Shown here in pieces: positions 2,635-64,000 of a stretch of DNA of 64,000 nucleotides. Within the stretch, counting starts at the first letter, position 1; the number at the start of each line of letters is the position of its first letter. The stretch is from NCBI GenBank assembly GCA_022771625.1, contig JALFCW010000120.1, positions 34,891-98,890 on the forward strand, given 5' to 3'. This DNA comes from Prevotella sp. (lineage in GTDB: Bacteria; Bacteroidota; Bacteroidia; Bacteroidales; Bacteroidaceae). Made by a program: the position numbers and the translations under genes. The notes beneath the pieces were generated by a model. It was given only the letters and a program-made list of their open reading frames with translations, was not told the DNA's origin and searched no databases.

Positions 2635-4788
2635 ATGAAGAAACAATTTACTAAGACGTTGGCAACATTATTACTTGGAATAACAGTTGTCGGCAATGCT
2701 ATCGCATCTGAAAAGATTGACAGACGTAAGGTAGTGACACGGCATAACCCACATGTCACTCATTTGGACTCTCTGTCTTCGCTTACAGTGGGAAACGGCA
2801 GATTTGCTTTTACCGTGGATGCCACAGGTCTGCAGACTTTCCCTCAAGAATATTCCCTTGGTGTTCCGCTCGGAACAATGAGCGAATGGGGATGGCACTC
2901 GTTTGCAAACCACGATGGATTCGAAGCTAAAGATGCATTGGCAAACCACGATTTCCACCGCGGTCATCCCGAATATTATTCTCTACAGATCAAACAACCA
3001 GAAAGAACACGCAAGGCAGTAGATTATTTGAGAGCTAATCCTCATAGACTTCATCTCGGAACAATAGGCCTTGACCTGTCTGACGCTTCGAAGATGAATG
3101 ACATAGACCAACATCTTGACCTTTGGACAGGAAAGATTGACAGTAAGTTCACGTATGACAAACAGACATATCATATAGAGACTGTCTGCGATCCTGGTTT
3201 AGATTGTATTGCAACCAATATTACATCTGACGGGAATATCGGAGTCGTATTCAGTTTTGCCTATCCCACAGGAGGACATTGTGACGATGCCTGTAGATGG
3301 GATGCCGACAAACTGCATAATACTACATTAAAAAGCGAGAAGAACTCTGCAGTAATCACCAGGACAATAGACAACACCTTATATTATATATATGTATCAT
3401 GGAAAGGCAATGCCGAGATTATACAAACAGGACGTAACAAGATATTGCTAAAATCCAAAGGCAAAAACCTCTCATTCTCAGCCTTATTCCAAAGTAATTC
3501 TGACGAATTCGGTATTTCCGAGAAATCCGGCATAACTACGAAAATCCCCCAAATACCAGACTATCCATTATGCGCCAAGGCCTCGTCTGAGAGATGGTAT
3601 TCATATTGGACAGAAGGAGGATTTATCGACCTTGGCAATGTGAAAGACAAAAGGGCAACCGAATTGGAACGACGTATCATTCTCAGCCAGTATCTCATGG
3701 GGGCACAAGAAGCAGGAAACATTCCTCCGCAGGAAACAGGACTCACATACAACTCGTGGTTTGGAAAATTCCACCTTGAAATGACATGGTGGCACCTTGT
3801 TCATTATGGACTATGGAACAAGTCCGAGCTACTCGACAGACAGATTTCGTGGTATGCCTCGGCAGAGGGTAAGGCGCGAGAAATAGCGCGACGCCAAGGA
3901 TTCAAGGGAGTGAGATGGATGAAGATGACCGACCCCTCAGCCGAGGAAGCACCTTCCAATGTCGGTTCGTTTCTGATATGGCAGCAGCCTCATCTTATAT
4001 ATTTGGCAGAACTGACATATCGTGCGGCAAAATCGGAAGAAGAGCGCACAAAGGCATTGGAGAAATACGGCAAACTTGTGGATGAGACAGCACTATTCAT
4101 GTGCGACTTCGCCGAATATGATTCAGTCAATGACCGATACATACTTCGCGGCTGCATACCAGCACAAGAAACCTTAAAAGCCGACTCTACGGTGAATCCC
4201 CCATTTGAACTGTCATATTGGCTGACTGCACTCGACATGGCACAGAAATGGAGAATAAGACGAGGACTCACTCCAATGAAAGACGCACAAATGGTGATAG
4301 ACAAACTGTCGCCATTGGCATTCAATGCCGACAGTATGTATCTAGCAGCTGAAAGTGCCACAGACACATATTCCAACATAAGAATGACAAGCGATCATCC
4401 CGCATTGCTTGGAGCATTAGGTATGATGCCCGACAACAAACTGCTGGATAAAACCATAATGTCAAATACACTGCGTTGGATATGGGAAAACTGGAACTGG
4501 GACAAGACCTGGGGCTGGGACTATCCAATGACTGCAATGACCTGTGCACGACTTGGAGAGGCCGACATGGCTATTGATGCATTGCTAATGCCCAAGCGCA
4601 CAAATACATACCTCATAAATGGACATAATTATCAAGATCAAAGACTCAGGGTATATATGCCAGGCAATGGCGGACTGCTCACCGCCGTGGCAATGATGTG
4701 TGCCGGATGGGACGGATGCGAGACATCTACGCCAGGATTCCCCAAAGACTGGGATGTGAGATGGGAAGGTCTATTGCCAATGCCATAA
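2635..4788 (+). CDS. Secreted glycoside hydrolase-like protein, probable (alpha/alpha)6 six-hairpin fold, family not assigned
   Basis: Signal peptide MKKQFTKTLATLLLGITVVGNAIAS; motifs QETGLTYNSWFGKFHLEMTWWH and WNWDKTWGWDYPMTAM are six-hairpin-glycosidase-like. Start at 2635 preferred because the -7 box lies at 2601-2608. Confidence 0.7.
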   Translation: MKKQFTKTLATLLLGITVVGNAIASEKIDRRKVVTRHNPHVTHLDSLSSLTVGNGRFAFTVDATGLQTFPQEYSLGVPLGTMSEWGWHSFANHDGFEAKDALANHDFHRGHPEYYSLQIKQPERTRKAVDYLRANPHRLHLGTIGLDLSDASKMNDIDQHLDLWTGKIDSKFTYDKQTYHIETVCDPGLDCIATNITSDGNIGVVFSFAYPTGGHCDDACRWDADKLHNTTLKSEKNSAVITRTIDNTLYYIYVSWKGNAEIIQTGRNKILLKSKGKNLSFSALFQSNSDEFGISEKSGITTKIPQIPDYPLCAKASSERWYSYWTEGGFIDLGNVKDKRATELERRIILSQYLMGAQEAGNIPPQETGLTYNSWFGKFHLEMTWWHLVHYGLWNKSELLDRQISWYASAEGKAREIARRQGFKGVRWMKMTDPSAEEAPSNVGSFLIWQQPHLIYLAELTYRAAKSEEERTKALEKYGKLVDETALFMCDFAEYDSVNDRYILRGCIPAQETLKADSTVNPPFELSYWLTALDMAQKWRIRRGLTPMKDAQMVIDKLSPLAFNADSMYLAAESATDTYSNIRMTSDHPALLGALGMMPDNKLLDKTIMSNTLRWIWENWNWDKTWGWDYPMTAMTCARLGEADMAIDALLMPKRTNTYLINGHNYQDQRLRVYMPGNGGLLTAVAMMCAGWDGCETSTPGFPKDWDVRWEGLLPMP

Positions 4789-51758: not shown

Positions 51759-53429
51759 TCACCTGAACCTAAACTTTACATCCCTCGGTATGCGCTCCCA
51801 ATCCTGAAGTTTGCGCTTGGGCCATGGTACAAAGAGAATGATTCCTGCACAAATGATACATCCATAAAACGTCCATCCCGCCATCTCCTTGATGGTAGTG
51901 AGAGTAGCCTGAACCGTCACCTTGCCCTTCAATTGCAATGCAGCCATCTGCTGGGCCTCGGCATCGGTCTTTCCTTGCATCTTCATGCCTTGCACCGTCA
52001 TGTCGTAGGTCTTTGCCGTCTCTGCATCCATACGGTCGAAGTCCTGGGCATAACGAGTGACATAATACTGCTGTCGATGTTGCAACACATTACTATAGAG
52101 CGCACTACCTATACCCGGTCCGATAATCATACGCACAGTGAGCATGATGCACACCCATGTTGACATCAGCTTATATGGCATACGCTGGTTGGCATAAACA
52201 GCGGTACATGCGTAGAGCAACATCATTCCCGCCGCACGGATGATGATAGGCCATTTCATTCGCTCCATCATTCCCGCAGTCTGCACCTCAAAGTACATAT
52301 ACACGGCAGAGAGTCCGATGAAGATAAATCCCCAAAAGAAGAGCCACTTGAAATGAATCTTCTTGGAACTGCAGAAGATAGCCATGACAAGTCCTATGAA
52401 ATATCCCAGCAGAACCCAGTTGCCCACCTCGGCAATCTGAAGGTTGTCCATCTTCATACCCACACTCATAAACACATTGACGAACATTGCACTGGAGTTG
52501 AATATCATGAGTCCGAGGAAGAGAAGAATACCGCCCTGGATGCTGCGCGACTTCAATGCCGTGATGAGGAAATAGGCCGAACGACGTGTCCTTTCGAGGA
52601 ATATGAACAGGAGCACTGACACAATACATATCAACGTAGCCAACTGTATTCGCTGGTCGTCATACCAATCGAGCACCTTGCCATATACCATTATATATAT
52701 AAAGGAGAGGCATGCGATAGAAAAGACCGTGAAATCCCCAAACTTGGAGAAGTTGATAGGAATACGGTTGTTGGGGAAGGGATTATATGGCATCGTGAGC
52801 CATACGATGATCACAGCCACTCCCAACACGGCAATCATGGCATAATAGACATACTGCCATTCGTAGTTATATGCAAACCATGCTGTGAGCCATGTACCTA
52901 TCTGACCAAGCACCATGAAGAAGTAATAGATAATTGGCATTGACGCCGTCTTCTCATAGTCGAGTTTGTCCCATCCCTCCTCGGTGGTAGGTTCGTTGCC
53001 TGGAGTGAGATTATGGGTAGCCTCGATGTGGAAACCGTAGGTGATGAGCGTAAAGAGGTTGCACATCAACAAAGCCTGACGCACGAATCCCATCACGAGC
53101 GAACACAGGGCAAGGACATACACACTGTCGGTGCGGGCACATACGAAGCTCAGCACAATGAGTATGCCGAATCCCCACATGAGCATTATCTTCTCGCGAC
53201 GAATGCATACGAGGTCGTAGAAGAATGGCGAGAAAGCCGCCATACCCACCGACGTGGCAAAGCCAACAAAGGATATATGTTCCGAAATGATGCCCAAACC
53301 ACCAACCATCTCACTGCTGTTGGCGGAATAGACACCACCAACTGTCATTATAGGTATGAATAGGAAAATCAGAAAGATGATTCCCAATGGTTTAGGCACC
53401 CAATCGTAGAACGGGAAATTTTTATTCAC
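51759..53429 (-). CDS. MFS drug-efflux-type transporter (EmrB/DHA2-like)
   Basis: 556 aa, many hydrophobic helices; operonic with HlyD-family and TolC-family genes. Confidence 0.85.
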   Translation of the reverse strand: MNKNFPFYDWVPKPLGIIFLIFLFIPIMTVGGVYSANSSEMVGGLGIISEHISFVGFATSVGMAAFSPFFYDLVCIRREKIMLMWGFGILIVLSFVCARTDSVYVLALCSLVMGFVRQALLMCNLFTLITYGFHIEATHNLTPGNEPTTEEGWDKLDYEKTASMPIIYYFFMVLGQIGTWLTAWFAYNYEWQYVYYAMIAVLGVAVIIVWLTMPYNPFPNNRIPINFSKFGDFTVFSIACLSFIYIMVYGKVLDWYDDQRIQLATLICIVSVLLFIFLERTRRSAYFLITALKSRSIQGGILLFLGLMIFNSSAMFVNVFMSVGMKMDNLQIAEVGNWVLLGYFIGLVMAIFCSSKKIHFKWLFFWGFIFIGLSAVYMYFEVQTAGMMERMKWPIIIRAAGMMLLYACTAVYANQRMPYKLMSTWVCIMLTVRMIIGPGIGSALYSNVLQHRQQYYVTRYAQDFDRMDAETAKTYDMTVQGMKMQGKTDAEAQQMAALQLKGKVTVQATLTTIKEMAGWTFYGCIICAGIILFVPWPKRKLQDWERIPRDVKFRFR

Positions 53430-53445
53430 AACGATACAATTTAAA

Positions 53446-54561
53446 TTATTTCACTTCAGCCTTCACAATCACCATCATACCAGCTGCCAGGCGGTCGTTA
53501 TCCTCCTTGCTGAGGTTGGTGAAGTCGATGCGCACTGGTACGCGTTGTTGTATCTTTACGAAGTTTCCTGCAGAGTTGTCGGTAGGAGTAAGCGAGAACT
53601 TAGAACCTGTAGCTCCAGATATTGCTGTAACCTTGCCGGTAAACTCCTTGTCGCTGATGGCATCAACAGTCATGCGTACTTTCTGGCCAATATAGAGATT
53701 CTCCACCTGTGTTTCCTTGTAGTTGGCAATCACCCACTTCTGTGTCTCAGGAATGATATATGTGATCGTCTGTCCGGCATTAACCATCTGTCCCTCTTCG
53801 AGAGAACGGCGACCCAACTTGCCGTCGCACGGAGCTACAACCACACAATAAGAGAGATTGAGCTTTGCCATCTCCAAGGCAGCAGTGGCACGCTCAATGG
53901 CTGCGGCAGTGTTGCCCTTGCGAGTTTGCACTTCATTGACTCCCGAGAGGGCGGCCTTCTTCTGTTTGAGGGTAGCGTCGAGCTTCTTCTTTGTAGCCTT
54001 GTATTCTGTCTCATACTGTTCGAGCTGGATAGGTGTTGCAGCATCACGCGCCACGAGGTTGCGATAGCGCTCCACATCCTTGGCCAATTTGCTAAGACGA
54101 ATCTCTATCTCTGATATTGACGCATCATACACCGAAGCCGTAGTCTCGGTGGTGTTGAGTGTGGCATTGATAACATTGGCACCAGCCTGTGCATCCTTCA
54201 ATGCAGCCTCTGCCTCCATTACACGTATGCGATATTCACGATCGTCGAGTATGAGCAGGGTATCTCCCTTCTTGACGTTCTGATGCTCTTGGAAGCAAAT
54301 CTTCTTGATATATCCCGAAGCACGCAGATTGACCGGTGAGAGATACTGCTCAACCTGAGCATCATTACTAGACTCATTCGACCTGTAGTCGATGAACATG
54401 CATACCACCTCATATACACCCCACGCGATGAGTGCAAGTCCGATGAGACTTACTATCATCTGACGCACCTTCTGTTTCTTCAATTGTTCAGCTGTCTTCT
54501 CGTGGCTTTCAGACACTGTCGTTTCCTGGCTTTCCACAGCCTTGTTTTCCTTATTTTCCAT
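53446..54561 (-). CDS. HlyD/EmrA-family membrane fusion protein
   Basis: 371 aa; LSPVNLRASGYIKKICFQEHQNVKKGDTLLILDDREYRIRVMEAEAAL, VVAPCDGKLGRRSLEEGQMVNAGQTITYIIPE. Confidence 0.93.
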   Translation of the reverse strand: MENKENKAVESQETTVSESHEKTAEQLKKQKVRQMIVSLIGLALIAWGVYEVVCMFIDYRSNESSNDAQVEQYLSPVNLRASGYIKKICFQEHQNVKKGDTLLILDDREYRIRVMEAEAALKDAQAGANVINATLNTTETTASVYDASISEIEIRLSKLAKDVERYRNLVARDAATPIQLEQYETEYKATKKKLDATLKQKKAALSGVNEVQTRKGNTAAAIERATAALEMAKLNLSYCVVVAPCDGKLGRRSLEEGQMVNAGQTITYIIPETQKWVIANYKETQVENLYIGQKVRMTVDAISDKEFTGKVTAISGATGSKFSLTPTDNSAGNFVKIQQRVPVRIDFTNLSKEDNDRLAAGMMVIVKAEVK

Positions 54562-54603
54562 TATCGTATTATATTTTCAATTTATGTTTCGCATAATAAA
54601 ATC

Positions 54604-55929
54604 CTAATTTTCCACAAGGGAATTAAGTCCGCCCGTGAGTTTGAGTACGGCGAGATTCGATACCTCGTAGTTGTAATGAGCGGTGAGATAGTTGTTCTGT
54701 GCCTCCGACATGCTCATCTCATCCTGCAATACCTCTACCATCGAGGTAACACCCTCACGATAGCGATCCATAGTCACCTTATATATATCCTCGGCAAGAC
54801 GGTAGTTGTCGCGCTGTTTGCGGTAGTTTCGCTCGTTGTTCAGTTGGTCGTTCACTGCATTCGAGTATTGCGTCTGCAAGTTCTTCAGCGTGTTCTCGTA
54901 TGCAATGCGCGCATTGTCGGCATCAATCTTGGCCTTGCGAATCTTGGATCGCTTCTCAAACCCGTCGAAGACAGGTACTCGAAGGGAAATACCGAGACCA
55001 TTGGAGTCATACCAATGATTGCTCTCTCCCGAATGAAACCAGTTCTTAAACTTATCTGTATATGCCGAGAAACTGAAGTTGCCAGTGAGGGCAATAGTAG
55101 GCAGATAGGCATCCTTGGCCAGTTTCACCTGTTGTTCAGTGAGTTTCTCCTGGGTGCGCATGAGTTGCAATTCATATAGATTGGCGTTAAGTCCCGACTG
55201 TGTCGCCATATTAATATCATCCACATGCTTCACCTCAACAAGAATCTCCTCGTCGGCAGGATAGTCCATGACATATTTGAGCATGTTATATTGCTCGCGA
55301 AGCATTGCCTTGGCATTTGCGAGCGACACGTCGGTACTCTCTATCCTGACATTGATACGCTTTAGGTCAACCCCCAAAGCCATCTGATTGTCATAGAATG
55401 CCTGGGCGAATTTTTTCAGTTCCTCAAATCTCTTGAGGTTATCTCCAATAATGGCTATCTGCTCGGTAGTATTCTGAATGAGATAGTAGAGTTTGGCTAT
55501 CTGCATGATAATGTCCTCACGAGCCTTCTCATAGGACAATTGGTTGAGATTGTCAAGGGTCTTTGCAATCTCTACGGCAGTAAGGGCCGTCTGACTATAG
55601 AGCGGCATCTGCAACTGCAGACTAGCCGACGAGTTATACTGCAAGGTCTTTGTCACGTTGTACAACTTACCGTATGCCGTACCATCGGTAACTGATACTG
55701 GAGGAGTAAAGTTGTCATTGAATCCTGCCGCGAAGTTAATCTGCGGCAGCAACCTTGCACGGTTCTCACTGATGTTGTGCTTGCCCTTAGTCACCTCGTT
55801 GCGACTTGACTTGAGCGAGAGATTATTCTCGATGCCTATCTTCAAGCAATCCTTGAGCGACAATACCTTTTGGGCACTTGCTGATGACATTGTCAGGAGC
55901 AAGGAAAAAGTGAACAGTAATTTCTTCAT
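54604..55929 (-). CDS. TolC-family outer membrane efflux protein
   Basis: 441 aa; KVLSLKDCLKIGIENNLSLKSSRNEV, NGLGISLRVPVFDGFEKRSKIRKAKIDADNARIAYENTLKNLQTQYSNAVND. Confidence 0.93.
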   Translation of the reverse strand: MKKLLFTFSLLLTMSSASAQKVLSLKDCLKIGIENNLSLKSSRNEVTKGKHNISENRARLLPQINFAAGFNDNFTPPVSVTDGTAYGKLYNVTKTLQYNSSASLQLQMPLYSQTALTAVEIAKTLDNLNQLSYEKAREDIIMQIAKLYYLIQNTTEQIAIIGDNLKRFEELKKFAQAFYDNQMALGVDLKRINVRIESTDVSLANAKAMLREQYNMLKYVMDYPADEEILVEVKHVDDINMATQSGLNANLYELQLMRTQEKLTEQQVKLAKDAYLPTIALTGNFSFSAYTDKFKNWFHSGESNHWYDSNGLGISLRVPVFDGFEKRSKIRKAKIDADNARIAYENTLKNLQTQYSNAVNDQLNNERNYRKQRDNYRLAEDIYKVTMDRYREGVTSMVEVLQDEMSMSEAQNNYLTAHYNYEVSNLAVLKLTGGLNSLVEN

Positions 55930-57763: not shown

Positions 57764-60085
57764 ATGAACGTAATTACGAAAACAGTATCGTTGCCTGATG
57801 GAAGAACCATCAGCATCGAGACCGGGAAAGTGGCAAAACAGTGCGACGGTTCATGTATGCTCCGTATGGGCAACACCGTTCTTTTGGCCACCGTTTGTGC
57901 CGCAAAGGATGCAGTTCCCGGAACAGATTTCATGCCTCTGCAGGTTGACTACAGAGAGCAGTATGCAGCAGCAGGCCGCTTCCCCGGCGGTTTCACCAAG
58001 CGCGAAGGCAAAGCCAGCGACAACGAGATTCTGACATCTCGCCTTGTTGACCGTGTTCTCCGCCCGTTGTTCCCCTCCAACTATCATGCGGAGGTGTATG
58101 TAAATGTAATGCTTTTCTCTGCCGATGGTGTTGACCAGCCCGACGCTCTTGCCGGATTTGCAGCATCAACAGCATTGGCTTGTTCCGACATTCCCTTTGA
58201 ATGTCCAATCAGTGAAGTTCGCGTAGCCCGTATAAACGGCGAATACGTTATCAACCCCACTTTCGACCAGATGAAGGATGCCGACATGGACATCATGGTT
58301 GGTGCATCTGCCGATAACATCATGATGGTGGAAGGCGAGATGAAGGAAGTGAGCGAGCAGGACATGATTGGCGCATTAAAGGCCGCTATGGACGCTATCA
58401 AGCCCATGTGCGAGATGCAGGTAGAGCTCTCTAAGGAACTTGGCAAGGATGTAAAGCGTGAGTATGACCATGAGGTCAACGACGAAGAGCTCCGTGAGCA
58501 GATGAACAAGGAACTCTATCAGAAAGCTTACGACGTGACCAAGCAGGCTCTTGAGAAGCAGGCCCGTCAGGAGGCTTTCGAAAATATCCTCACCGAATTC
58601 AAGGAGGCATACAATACAGCCCATGCAGATCTCTCAGAGGATGAACTTGAGGAGAAGGCTGCCATGATGGACCGCTATTATCACGATGTGATGCGCGATG
58701 CAATGCGTCGTTGTATCCTCGATGAGGGTATCCGTCTTGATGGTCGTAAGACTGACGAGATCCGTCCCATCTGGTGCGAGGTCAGCCCACTGCCAATGCC
58801 TCACGGAAGTTCAATCTTCACCCGTGGCGAGACTCAGTCGCTCACCACATGTACACTTGGTACTAAGCTCGACGAGAAGATGGTTGACGATGTGCTCGAC
58901 AAGAGCTACATGCGCTTCCTTCTCCACTATAACTTCCCCCCATTCTGTACTGGCGAGGCCAAAGCTCAGCGTGGCGTAGGTCGCCGTGAGATTGGTCACG
59001 GTCACCTGGCATGGCGCGGTCTGAAGGGTCAGATACCCGAGGACTTCCCCTACACAGTACGTCTCGTAAGCCAGATCCTCGAATCTAACGGTTCTTCGTC
59101 AATGGCTACTGTATGTGCCGGAACTCTTGCTCTTATGGATGCCGGTGTTCCAATGAAGAAGCCTGTGAGCGGTATTGCCATGGGACTTATTAAGAATCCA
59201 GGCGAGGAGAAGTATGCCGTACTTAGCGACATTCTTGGTGACGAGGACCACTTGGGAGATATGGACTTCAAGACCACCGGTACACGCGATGGTCTGACAG
59301 CCACCCAGATGGATATCAAGTGCGACGGTCTGTCATTCGAGATTCTCGAGAAGGCTCTCATGCAGGCAAAGGCAGGTCGCGAGCACATCCTAAACTGCAT
59401 CACCGACACTATTGCCGAACCACGTGCCGAGATGAAGCCACAGGTACCACGTATCGTACAGATTGAGATACCTAAGGAGTTCATCGGTGCTGTTATCGGT
59501 CCGGGTGGAAAGATTATCCAGCAGATGCAGGAGGACACAGGTGCCACCATCACCATCGACGAGATTGACGGAGTTGGCAAGGTGCAGGTTAGTGCTCCCA
59601 ACAAGGAAAGCATCGACGCAGCCCTTGGCAAGATCAAGGCCATCGTTGCCATCCCTGAGGTTGGTGAGGTTTATGACGGAACAGTACGCTCTATCATGCC
59701 TTACGGATGCTTCGTAGAGATTCTCCCTGGCAAGGACGGTCTGCTCCACATCAGCGAGATTGACTGGAAGCGCCTTGAGACAGTTGAAGAGGCAGGTATC
59801 AAGGAAGGCGACAAGATAAAGGTGAAGTTGCTTGAGATTGACCCGAAGACAGGCAAGTACAAGCTCTCTCACCGAGTTCTTATCGAGAAGCCAGCCGACT
59901 ATCAGGAGCGTCCCGCACGTCGTGAGCGTCCTGAGCGTGGTGAGCGTCGTCCTCGTCCCGAAAGAGGCGAGCGTCGTCCTCGTCCCGAAAGAGGTGAGCG
60001 TCGTCCTCGTCCCGAGCAGGAGGAAATCCACGAGCCACATGAGCCCAAAGATTTCAATGATTCTCTCGACAAGATGGATTTTTAA
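57764..60085 (+). CDS. pnp: Polyribonucleotide nucleotidyltransferase (PNPase)
   Basis: 773 aa; [50 protein letters not shown] motif [27 protein letters not shown]1 motif [28 protein letters not shown]. Confidence 0.98.
59942..60020 (+). repeat. 27-bp tandem repeat (about 3 units) in the 3' end of pnp encoding (ERRPRPERG)n
   Basis: GAGCGTCGTCCTCGTCCCGAAAGAGG(C/T) at 59942, 59969 and (partial) 59996. Confidence 0.92.
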
Positions 60086-60342: not shown

Positions 60343-61839
60343 ATGAAGAAAAGTATTAATTTATTTTTTCTGCTTTTGGCCATGTTCTTATGGTCATGCA
60401 GTGACGACGACGGGAACAACGGCGGCACAAGCACTACCGATTCCAAGGTGTACGTAATGTGCTACAACGATTTCCTCGACCCATCGGACGTTCTAATAAC
60501 CGCACAGGACACAAGCGTCATCACAGTGAGCAAGCCCTATGCCACAACAAAGGGACTCACAATGAAGAAGGGCGACAAGATTGTAGTGTGGCGCTCAGTA
60601 AACGAACTGCCATTCTGCAAGACTGTTGAGAACGCCAACTATGACAACAACAACCGTGTTGTGCTCAATCTCTCGGCCTGCACCTATGACGAGATAATAC
60701 CCGACGGGCATTTCATCCTGTCATCCGACATCTACACCGACAAGAACCAACCGGCGCGCACCAACGACGGCTCTATCAATGAGATGCATTACGTGGAAAA
60801 GACCGACTCAGGCAATGTATATCACCCCGCTGCCATCATCATTAACAACGACGGCAAGGACAACGACGGCGAAGCACCTCATGTGGCCACTGCCGTGGAT
60901 TCCATTCCCGGAACAGTGAGCGGAATAGGCACCTCAGGCGTACTTGTTGAGGACCTTGAGAAAAAGAACTGGGGCGGCAGTTTTAGCTTCACCCCGGTGA
61001 ACATCAATATTGCCTTGAAAGATTTGACTTTCAAAAAAAAGCAAACCGAAAAAGACAGTGTATTCTATATGGAGATAGGCGCTGAGAGACTTGCATTTTC
61101 GGCTCTTGCCGGTTTCAATGTGGAATGGAAGGGCGAGTGGTTCACCCTTAAGGAATTCAGTTATGGCATCAAATACGAGCTTGGCGCCTCGGCAAAACTG
61201 AAAGCAGTTGCAGGCCGCGCATTTAAGGTGCCCGAGGAATACGGCGAGATGGAACTTGCCACCATCACGTCGCTCTCATATATCTTCTGGTGTGGAGTGA
61301 TACCCGTTTACGTGACCACCACTCCCAAGATCTGTCATGGATTCAAAGGCGGTTTCGATGCCTCATTAGGTTATAGACAGGAATTCAGCTATAAGTATTC
61401 AGGAGGAACAACCAGTAAATGGAAAAAAGACATAGGCTGGCGTGATTATAAAACCAAGAAAGAAGAAAGGAAAGTGGGCGACCCCGAAATTTCCTTAATA
61501 GGCAAGCTGAGCCTGGAATATTCAGTGTTCCTCAAATGTGATCTCAGTCTATTCGGATTTATTTCGCCGAAATCCACAATGGGCCCGTATTTCAAGGGCG
61601 AGGTTACCGGCACTTTTGGTGCAAACTTAGCCGAAGGCAAACCAATAAAAGAAATCAAGGCAAAAGTGTCGGCAGGCTTAAAATGGGGACTGGGTATCGA
61701 CATAAAGGCCGGAAAATGGAAACTGGAGGGAGTAACATGGGATTGGCCAATAGTCGAGGCTGTCATTTACGAAAACAAATGGAACTTCGCCGATGAGGAC
61801 AACAAAGCCATTGAAATCCCCTATGCACCCGCAATATAA
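60343..61839 (+). CDS. Lipoprotein of unknown function, predicted surface-exposed
   Basis: 498 aa; MKKSINLFFLLLAMFLWSC|SDDDGNNGG lipobox with an acidic run after Cys; 9 bp upstream of the C13-like gene. Confidence 0.75.
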   Translation: MKKSINLFFLLLAMFLWSCSDDDGNNGGTSTTDSKVYVMCYNDFLDPSDVLITAQDTSVITVSKPYATTKGLTMKKGDKIVVWRSVNELPFCKTVENANYDNNNRVVLNLSACTYDEIIPDGHFILSSDIYTDKNQPARTNDGSINEMHYVEKTDSGNVYHPAAIIINNDGKDNDGEAPHVATAVDSIPGTVSGIGTSGVLVEDLEKKNWGGSFSFTPVNINIALKDLTFKKKQTEKDSVFYMEIGAERLAFSALAGFNVEWKGEWFTLKEFSYGIKYELGASAKLKAVAGRAFKVPEEYGEMELATITSLSYIFWCGVIPVYVTTTPKICHGFKGGFDASLGYRQEFSYKYSGGTTSKWKKDIGWRDYKTKKEERKVGDPEISLIGKLSLEYSVFLKCDLSLFGFISPKSTMGPYFKGEVTGTFGANLAEGKPIKEIKAKVSAGLKWGLGIDIKAGKWKLEGVTWDWPIVEAVIYENKWNFADEDNKAIEIPYAPAI

Positions 61840-61848
61840 TTATAAATA

Positions 61849-63999
61849 ATGTATAAAGGAAAAATATTCAGCTTCATTGCTGTATTATTGTTGCTCGGCT
61901 TGTCGTCATGCCATGACGACGAGCCGGGCAATAACCGTTTTGACCCTGAAGTGGGTTATGACTATTATGTCGCAGTGTTCTACAACTCGGAAGACTCCTT
62001 GGCCAAGAAGAACATGGCAGAGTGGGCGGCTGCCGACTTTGCCGATGCACAGAAGTCGATGTCAAAACAACTAAGTGTCGGGATCAGATGGTATAATTGC
62101 GACAACAACGACTGGATATTGGATGTGGAAAATGCAGTGTTGGACAATCAATGCACTGCCATCATAGGGCCCGAAGGCTCCACAAAATGCCAGACGCTGA
62201 TTTCAGTGGCAAAAAAAACGGCAAAGTTAGGGAAAATCGCCGACAAGCCAATCATTCTGCCCACTGCCACCTCGGTTGACCTGCAGAGACAGTGCATGCA
62301 ATACGGCAACACGTGGTTTATGTCGGAGAACGACCTTTGCCAGGGAGAAATGATGTTGCGCGTTTGCCAACTGATGGAATCAAAGTCGATAATGGTGATT
62401 TCATCCAACGATGCCTACGGACTGTCCTTCCACGACAAGATGCCGTTTATGGCAAACGAATGGGGCATAGACATCGGGTTCAACGAACTGGTATCGCCCA
62501 ATGCCACCAACGCCGAGATTGAGGATATGCTCTCCAGGGCATATCAGTATGCCAAGGACAAGGGATTTGACACATTGGATGACGTAATTGTGTTGGTTGC
62601 CTCAAGCAATTACCGCCACTATAAAGCCGCCAACCAATGGGACATGAACCATCGTGATGACATGTGCATCATCTTCACCGACAATGCCGGCACATTCAAC
62701 AACCAGGAAGCCTATTCCGACGCCTCCGGCATTGCCCTTGCACCGAACATAGAGAGCACCTTCATCAAGCGTTTCAAGAGCAAGTTTCCCAATGTCAACC
62801 AAGGCAACGCCCTGTGTGGCGAGGCGTTTATATACGATGCCGTCATGATGGCGCTGCTTTCCACTTATGCCCACTGGACCAACGGCACCGACGCCAACGA
62901 GGCTATCAAGCGGATGACTACCGACGAACACGCCGTGGCCAACTACGACACCAACGGCATTCAACCTGTGCTGCAAATGATTGGCGGAGGCAATATTCCC
63001 CAGATTTACGGAATGGCGGGCGAATGGGATTTTTATAAAGGCATCAACCTGCATCCATGTTATTACCTATGGGAACAGGAAGACGGGAAGATTAACATTT
63101 ATTTTCATATTGACTCCGAAACATTCACACTGCGCGAAAATGACGATGAGACACTGACCGAGTGGACACCCACAAAGCTTGCGCCTGAATTGTTCGAGTC
63201 AATTGCCGACCCGAAAAACTATGGCGCGCTCGGCAACAAATGGGCTGTGATTGTGGCAAGCAGCATTGGATTTGAAAACTACCGCCACAATGCCGACGCA
63301 CTCGCTATCTACCAGACACTCAAGCGCAACGGATATGACGACAACCACATCCTGCTCATCATCAACGACGCAGTGGCCAACGACACGCACAATCCCTTCC
63401 GTGGGGTCATCAAGAGCACCTCGGATGGAGTCAATCTCATGGATGGAGCCGTCGTTGACTATCACACTCCCGACCTCACTCCCGGCCAATTGCAGGATTT
63501 GCTCACCTCAGGTGATGTGTTCGCCCCTCAGCCCGACGACAATGTATTCATCTTCTGGAGCGGCCACGGCACCACGAAAGGCGAGCTATGCTGGCGTGGA
63601 AACAACAGCGAGAACATCTCAACCGAGCAGTTCTGCGGATGGCTCCAGGCAATGTCAACACTGCAACGCTACCGCAAGCTGATGCTATGCATTGAGGCGT
63701 GCTACAGCGGAGCCATTGCCAAGAGCCAGCTCCCCACCGGAGTGTTATGCATGACGGCAGCCAACAGCAATGAGACCTCAATAGTGCATGGCGACAGTCC
63801 CGACGCGGTTATGGGCACATATCTATGCGATGAGTTCAGCTATATAATGAACGAGAAAATCAAGGACAACCCCTCCATTCTCGTCAGCGACTTGTATAAA
63901 TACATGTATCTCAATACAGCCACGTCCCACGTCACGCTGTCGGACATAAGGCAATTCGGCGCCATCACCAAATGCAAAATGGACGAGTTTATAAAATAA
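61849..63999 (+). CDS. Lipoprotein with type-I periplasmic-binding-like N-terminal domain and C13 (legumain-like) cysteine peptidase C-terminal domain
   Basis: 716 aa; lipobox LSSC|HDDEPGNN; N-terminal AIIGPEGSTKCQTLISVAKK...PIILPTATSVDLQ...MVISSNDAYGLSF...; C-terminal WAVIVASSIGFENYRHNADALAIYQTLKRNGYDDNHILLIINDAVANDTHNPFRG, FIFWSGHGTTKGEL (His), MLCIEACYSGAIA (Cys), TAANSNETS. Confidence 0.85.
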   Translation: MYKGKIFSFIAVLLLLGLSSCHDDEPGNNRFDPEVGYDYYVAVFYNSEDSLAKKNMAEWAAADFADAQKSMSKQLSVGIRWYNCDNNDWILDVENAVLDNQCTAIIGPEGSTKCQTLISVAKKTAKLGKIADKPIILPTATSVDLQRQCMQYGNTWFMSENDLCQGEMMLRVCQLMESKSIMVISSNDAYGLSFHDKMPFMANEWGIDIGFNELVSPNATNAEIEDMLSRAYQYAKDKGFDTLDDVIVLVASSNYRHYKAANQWDMNHRDDMCIIFTDNAGTFNNQEAYSDASGIALAPNIESTFIKRFKSKFPNVNQGNALCGEAFIYDAVMMALLSTYAHWTNGTDANEAIKRMTTDEHAVANYDTNGIQPVLQMIGGGNIPQIYGMAGEWDFYKGINLHPCYYLWEQEDGKINIYFHIDSETFTLRENDDETLTEWTPTKLAPELFESIADPKNYGALGNKWAVIVASSIGFENYRHNADALAIYQTLKRNGYDDNHILLIINDAVANDTHNPFRGVIKSTSDGVNLMDGAVVDYHTPDLTPGQLQDLLTSGDVFAPQPDDNVFIFWSGHGTTKGELCWRGNNSENISTEQFCGWLQAMSTLQRYRKLMLCIEACYSGAIAKSQLPTGVLCMTAANSNETSIVHGDSPDAVMGTYLCDEFSYIMNEKIKDNPSILVSDLYKYMYLNTATSHVTLSDIRQFGAITKCKMDEFIK

Positions 64000-64000
64000 C

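Follow-up and report, generated by a model that had tools for sequence, protein, structure and literature searches.

What does a bacterium gain from a protease that carries its own receptor domain? The question is raised by one gene of a 64,000-nucleotide stretch of Prevotella sp. DNA (the window, by which we mean this whole stretch). The gene lies within the window at 61849-63999 and encodes a lipoprotein in which a Venus-flytrap (VFT), or type-1 periplasmic-binding, domain is followed on the same chain by a peptidase of the legumain family, C13. This fusion recurs with the same architecture in a protein family of Bacteroidales whose genes mostly lie in operons with other lipoproteins. We tentatively favor the explanation that the fusion protein is a surface receptor–protease that processes lipoproteins encoded in its operon under the control of the VFT domain. 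The features of the gene on which the argument draws are the following.

61849-63999, forward strand: fusion gene, encoding a lipoprotein signal, a VFT/type-1 periplasmic-binding domain and a C13 legumain domain, the same architecture as in 60 full-length open reading frames (ORFs)
61849-61926, forward strand: signal peptide with lipobox LSSC; predicted lipidated Cys21 at 61909-61911, beginning an acidic CHDDE
61960-63183, forward strand: VFT domain, residues 38-445; above the ANF_receptor cut-off, with profile matches to 4gnr, T1R3 and mGluR1
61960-63183, forward strand: fold-search matches of the VFT domain (low-confidence model) to mGluR, T1R and GABA-B ectodomains
62179-62682, forward strand: five amino-acid-binding signature residues, S111 (62179-62181), T141 (62269-62271), D162 (62332-62334), Y190 (62416-62418) and D278 (62680-62682), equivalent to mGlu1 S165, T188, D208, Y236 and D318
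63238-63936, forward strand: Peptidase C13 (legumain) domain, residues 464-696; Pfam PF01650 (E=3.8e-44, 151.6 bits against a cut-off of 22.8) and legumain structures in the PDB
63277-63279, forward strand: Asn477, aligned with the legumain NYRH motif and conserved in 58/60
63283-63831, forward strand: S1-pocket equivalents R479 (63283-63285), H480, S644 (63778-63780) and D661 (63829-63831), for legumain Arg44, His45, Ser216 and Asp231
63565-63567 and 63700-63702, forward strand: catalytic dyad His573 and Cys618, each in 60/60, within the DHG and EAC motifs of legumain

A receptor domain and a legumain domain in one lipoprotein

The ORF is complete, encoding 716 residues, with an ATG start and a stop codon within its coordinates. 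Contig C52 ends where the window ends. Its last 141 bp, window bases 63860-64000, are identical to the end of C11, another contig of this genome, and through this assembly overlap the sequence can be followed further downstream. Beyond the overlap lies a convergent, GH94-type phosphorylase-like gene, followed by a ZIP-type transporter gene (both named by inspection), so that the fusion gene is both complete and the last of a short operon. An assembly or frameshift chimera is ruled out by the identical architecture of the 60 full-length ORFs. The sequence-only reading had delimited this same ORF and had proposed a periplasmic-binding sensor joined to a legumain-like peptidase on one lipoprotein. 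All the motifs that it quoted are present in the translation, and the domain pairing is backed by Pfam, by profile searches of the PDB, by fold searches with low-confidence models and by conservation across the 60 relatives.

Sequence comparison alone links the C13 half to structures of mammalian legumain (E=6e-28), and legumain 4awb is the top Foldseek match of the full-length model (E 3e-15), a low-confidence model with a mean predicted local distance difference test (pLDDT) score of 55.6. The His and Cys blocks that had been picked out in the C-terminal part as a legumain pattern contain H573 and C618, which align with the corresponding legumain motifs. In the alignment of 60 full-length fusion sequences from which all residue counts are taken, Cys618, His573, Arg479 and Ser644 are invariant, which argues that the protease is under selection; His480 is kept in 54, and position 616 is Glu in 54 and Asp in 6. 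From the alignment, we take the human legumain equivalents to be Asn42, Arg44, His45, His148, Cys189, Ser216 and Asp231. The S1 pocket of legumain is formed by Arg44, His45, Ser216 and Asp231 (PMC4357240). Because its S1-pocket residues match those of legumain, the C13 domain of the window copy is predicted to cleave after Asn, possibly also after Asp. The C-terminal activation peptide and LSAM prodomain of legumain are missing: the fusion protein ends ~20 residues past the C13 match, and Pfam found no prodomain after the C13 domain. The fusion protein is therefore a C13 peptidase, not a zymogen of the eukaryotic legumain type.

Other chemistries and families were considered for this half. The C13 family also includes GPI transamidase and asparaginyl ligases, which the domain matches too. 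It could be a transpeptidase or ligase that, like GPI8 or plant peptide asparaginyl ligases, links substrates together or fixes them to the surface rather than hydrolysing them. We think this very unlikely, as mammalian legumain scores higher (101 bits) than GPI8 (~81 bits) or the plant ligases (~86 bits), and the locus holds nothing that suggests an acceptor. Membership in the caspase family (C14) or in a defence system was rejected, with 22 bits against a cut-off of 140 for NCBIfam caspase_w_EACC1 and 17 bits for the PADLOC caspase model.

The receptor half is matched by ANF_receptor in Pfam (residues 101-334, E=2.1e-7, 30.8 bits against a cut-off of 25.4), as are, at E<=0.01, 29 of the 32 family members that were searched. 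A profile built from 32 VFT halves finds in the PDB the LivJ-type amino-acid-binding protein 4gnr (1.3e-15), T1R3 (5.9e-7) and mGluR1 (6.9e-6), and also 3td9. A separate model of the VFT half, again of low confidence (pLDDT 57), has its top fold matches among the ectodomains of class C receptors and related VFT proteins (mGluR/T1R/GABA-B), and all the matches listed are VFT-bearing receptors (E 3e-12, but a template-modelling score of ~0.33).

In mGlu1, the backbone of the bound amino acid is gripped by S165, T188, D208, Y236 and D318 (PMC2680970). Alignment with mGluR1 places S111, T141, D162 and Y190 of the window copy at the first four of these positions, and alignment with 3td9 together with the family alignment places D278 at the fifth. 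Across the 60 members the columns hold Ser in 46, Thr or Ser in 57, Asp in 58, Tyr in 53 and Asp in 41; all five residues occur together in 34 members, four in 10 more, and two or three in the remaining 16. Since the window copy is one of those with all five, an alpha-amino-acid-like ligand is the leading prediction and our best guess; a small peptide or another ligand with the same backbone groups is possible.

Where would such a protein act? Its LSSC-HDDE resembles the export signal carried by those lipoproteins of Bacteroidota that are displayed on the cell surface (PMC6222051). The lipobox Cys21 is present in 59 of the 60 members, and the six positions after it carry a family mean of 2.4 acidic residues, against a composition background of 0.8. 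The fusion protein is thus probably an outer-membrane lipoprotein exposed at the cell surface.

A Bacteroidales family with lipoprotein partners

Among 60 genomes searched for relatives, eight, including the source genome, carry the fusion. In a 300-genome sample of Bacteroidaceae, 40 genomes from 12 of 22 genera matched (two of the 40 weakly, E about 1e-5), and an order-level sample added full-length members in three further Bacteroidales families. Sampling 300 genomes across the phylum recovered the full fusion in the source genome only, with no full-length member outside Bacteroidales; two other matches there cover part of the periplasmic-binding half only, and the remaining C13 proteins of Bacteroidota reach no more than 26-48 bits. 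When 85,488 species genomes were scanned with short peptide patterns, all records returned were from Bacteroidaceae/Bacteroidales, although such a scan is a search for close relatives and has little bearing on distant fusions. A tblastn search for carriage of the fusion on plasmids gave no match.

That the fusion is an accident or is decaying, without function, could be argued from its presence in a minority of genomes only. We find this hardly credible given 60 full-length members with an invariant active site, their spread over 12 genera, and one genome (G032) with about nine paralogues, some of them clustered. The G032 paralogues (L033 1-17514, L034, L036, L040-L042) are accompanied by Bmp-like proteins, and their loci contain expanded 430-960-residue lipoproteins of a family found elsewhere between MACPF and Bmp genes.

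The gene directly upstream of the fusion encodes, in 53 of 61 loci, a Bmp/PnrA-like binding lipoprotein of 300-430 residues (assigned by PF02608 where detected), and the two reading frames usually overlap. In 15 loci the operon also encodes one to three MACPF lipoproteins, often with BACON domains, and a repeated gene order runs from MACPF proteins through a ~400-residue lipoprotein of unknown family and the Bmp-like protein to the fusion. In the 300-genome Bacteroidaceae sample, the coordinates place 24 MACPF genes from ten genomes no more than 8 kb away from a fusion gene. Three loci (L036:1-5596, L090:1-5621 and L091:12387-17981) encode three different tandem MACPF lipoproteins of about 490, 590 and 790 residues, reminiscent of multi-component pore-formers. 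Eight loci have yet another type of partner, a BACON-like protein about 770 residues long; neither Pfam nor a purpose-built profile identifies it as a MACPF protein, and it has only its N-terminal BACON-like part in common with the big MACPF proteins. One further locus, L026, encodes a C10 (streptopain-like) protease with BspA-type leucine-rich repeats (203-2851) and a second leucine-rich-repeat protein (3536-4393), both upstream of the Bmp-fusion pair.

In the family tree all 17 MACPF-linked fusion proteins fall in one half and none in the other. The window copy and its nearest relative belong to the MACPF-linked half, where they join a largely MACPF-linked clade (support 95/81), and both have a 498-residue protein in place of Bmp and MACPF.

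These partners bear on whether the fusion simply feeds the cell. In such nutrient scavenging a surface endopeptidase would nick proteins and the VFT domain would capture the released amino acids or peptides for a transporter, each domain doing its own work and neither gating the other. Binding and hydrolysis are often united in surface lipoproteins of Bacteroidota, and the VFT relatives include the amino-acid uptake proteins 4gnr and 3td9. No conserved transporter stands out as an operon member in the relatives' loci, however; the companion found most regularly there is another binding lipoprotein, and MACPF lipoproteins turn up repeatedly. We regard scavenging as unlikely.

The single-gene view of the sequence-only reading was right about the fusion and could not see that it belongs to a widespread Bacteroidales family in a conserved operon with Bmp-like and often MACPF lipoproteins, a setting that changes the likely biological role. 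Among openly licensed papers we found nothing relevant on bacterial legumain or on VFT–protease fusions, nor any description of this fusion, its spread or its link to Bmp-like and MACPF lipoproteins. Each domain is already known; relative to the literature searched, what is new would be the fusion, its spread and that link.

Proposed control and substrates of the protease

A joint explanation has to cover a protease and an amino-acid site that are both intact, together with co-inherited lipoproteins, some of them relatives of pore-formers. We propose that the ligand of the N-terminal VFT domain is a small molecule with an alpha-amino-acid group and that the C-terminal legumain-type cysteine endopeptidase cleaves after Asn or possibly Asp. 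Since the LSAM prodomain is missing, control of protease activity would probably be taken over by the VFT domain, either by itself or in concert with the Bmp-like lipoprotein that most relatives possess. The most likely substrates would be surface lipoproteins encoded nearby, namely MACPF pore-formers in the clade of the window copy and, in the window genome, the 498-residue lipoprotein or something encoded elsewhere.

The proposal has precedents. In dendritic cells, perforin-2, a MACPF protein, is processed by legumain (asparagine endopeptidase); pores form in vitro without this cut, which may make them more flexible or inactivate them (PMC7614779). The CDCL pore-forming toxins of Bacteroidota need cleavage by the surface clan-CD lipoproteases fragipain and DpnB (PMC11169675), and fragipain also activates Fab1, another antibacterial toxin (PMC8406203). 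By analogy, the likeliest role of the fusion protein is to process its operon partners under the control of a sensor, and a ligand-gated protease is a plausible reading of it.

Several observations weigh against this proposal. About half of the fusion family lacks a MACPF neighbor, and a search of the whole source genome with PF01823 found no MACPF gene; a MACPF protein is therefore not the substrate of the window copy, unless it is too divergent for Pfam. The column of Asp661, the equivalent of Asp231 in the S1 pocket, holds Asp in 16 of the 60 members, the window copy among them, and Asn in 43, which changes the charge of the pocket, and cleavage specificity may differ across the family. The structural models, with mean pLDDT of 56-57, are of low confidence.

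The same operon linkage to MACPF would also suit a protease that processes toxins without sensing anything, in which the legumain domain matures MACPF or other partners and the VFT domain serves to dock either the substrate or the Bmp-like protein. The 16 members that keep just two or three of the five signature residues fit such a role, as does the position of D278 as the least conserved of these columns. On the other hand, the full set of five ligand residues survives in the window copy and in 33 other members, which goes beyond what docking needs, and we judge processing without sensing to be rather improbable.

A more specific version would be a bacterial legumain–perforin module, in which a VFT–legumain lipoprotein that senses amino acids would mature, at the cell surface, the MACPF lipoproteins encoded alongside it, with partners (the MACPF trio, the 498-residue protein or the BACON-like 770-residue protein) exchangeable by lineage, in parallel to perforin-2 processing in dendritic cells. 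We offer it as a speculative extension that is more probably wrong than right.

Comparison with known systems helps to place the fusion protein. With the legumain of mammals and plants (asparaginyl endopeptidase, MEROPS C13) it has in common the fold, the Cys-His dyad, the NYRH and EAC motifs and the S1 equivalents, but it is a bacterial lipoprotein with an N-terminal VFT domain, whereas legumain carries an activation peptide and the LSAM domain at its C terminus. The ectodomains of class C receptors and the LivJ-type binding proteins (ANF_receptor/Peripla_BP_6) have in common with it the family match, a fold match that comes from a low-confidence model, and the five-residue motif, and differ in output, which is a G-protein-coupled receptor, a kinase or an ABC permease in their case and a protease domain here. 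Similar in logic are the Venus kinase receptors, in which an amino-acid-binding VFT domain is fused to a catalytic output, a tyrosine kinase (PMC2680970); those are animal transmembrane kinases, whereas the fusion would be a lipid-anchored protease forming one extracytoplasmic chain. Fragipain and DpnB are likewise clan-CD cysteine proteases, shown to be surface lipoproteins that activate pore-forming toxins (PMC11169675), although they belong to family C11 and are Arg/Lys-specific. On this comparison, the fusion protein would be a clan-CD surface lipoprotease carrying a receptor domain. Fragipain and DpnB are not known to carry a VFT domain. The MACPF proteins of the relatives' operons resemble the antimicrobial BSAP lipoproteins, MACPF proteins of which some have BACON domains (PMC12853789); the openly licensed MACPF literature that we searched contained no paper pairing Bacteroidales with legumain.

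If the proposal is correct, a prokaryotic mGluR-like amino-acid receptor domain joined to a legumain protease would amount to a simple ligand-gated protease, and to an alternative regulatory solution for C13 enzymes without the LSAM prodomain. The repeated MACPF linkage pairs legumain with perforin in bacteria, as in mammalian immunity, and the fusion operons are testable candidates for the switching on of perforin-like proteins in gut and rumen Bacteroidales.

The 498-residue partner and other genes of the window

The short operon that ends in the fusion gene begins with the gene for the 498-residue lipoprotein.

60343-61839, forward strand: 498-residue lipoprotein of a beta-rich-looking family, co-directional with the fusion gene and ending 9 nt before it

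The protein gave no Pfam match, and a 14-row profile gave no PDB match; profile-profile comparison with MACPF and with the other operon partners gave no convincing match either. It appears to belong to an undescribed family, which adjoins the fusion gene in at least five genomes. Of 250 genomes from the genus, 28 encode it, and many of these have several copies or longer forms. The family, multi-copy in the genus, has an invariant Cys19, an H161-P162 pair and GP motifs, and its longer versions of 690-780 residues add a C-terminal part.

Elsewhere in the window, genes were named by inspecting their translations. At 57764-60085 lies a polynucleotide phosphorylase gene whose product extends past the S1 domain in a repeated Arg/Glu/Pro-rich tail (RRPRPERGE repeats), and at 51759-55929, on the reverse strand, an efflux operon of TolC-, HlyD/EmrA- and MFS-like genes.
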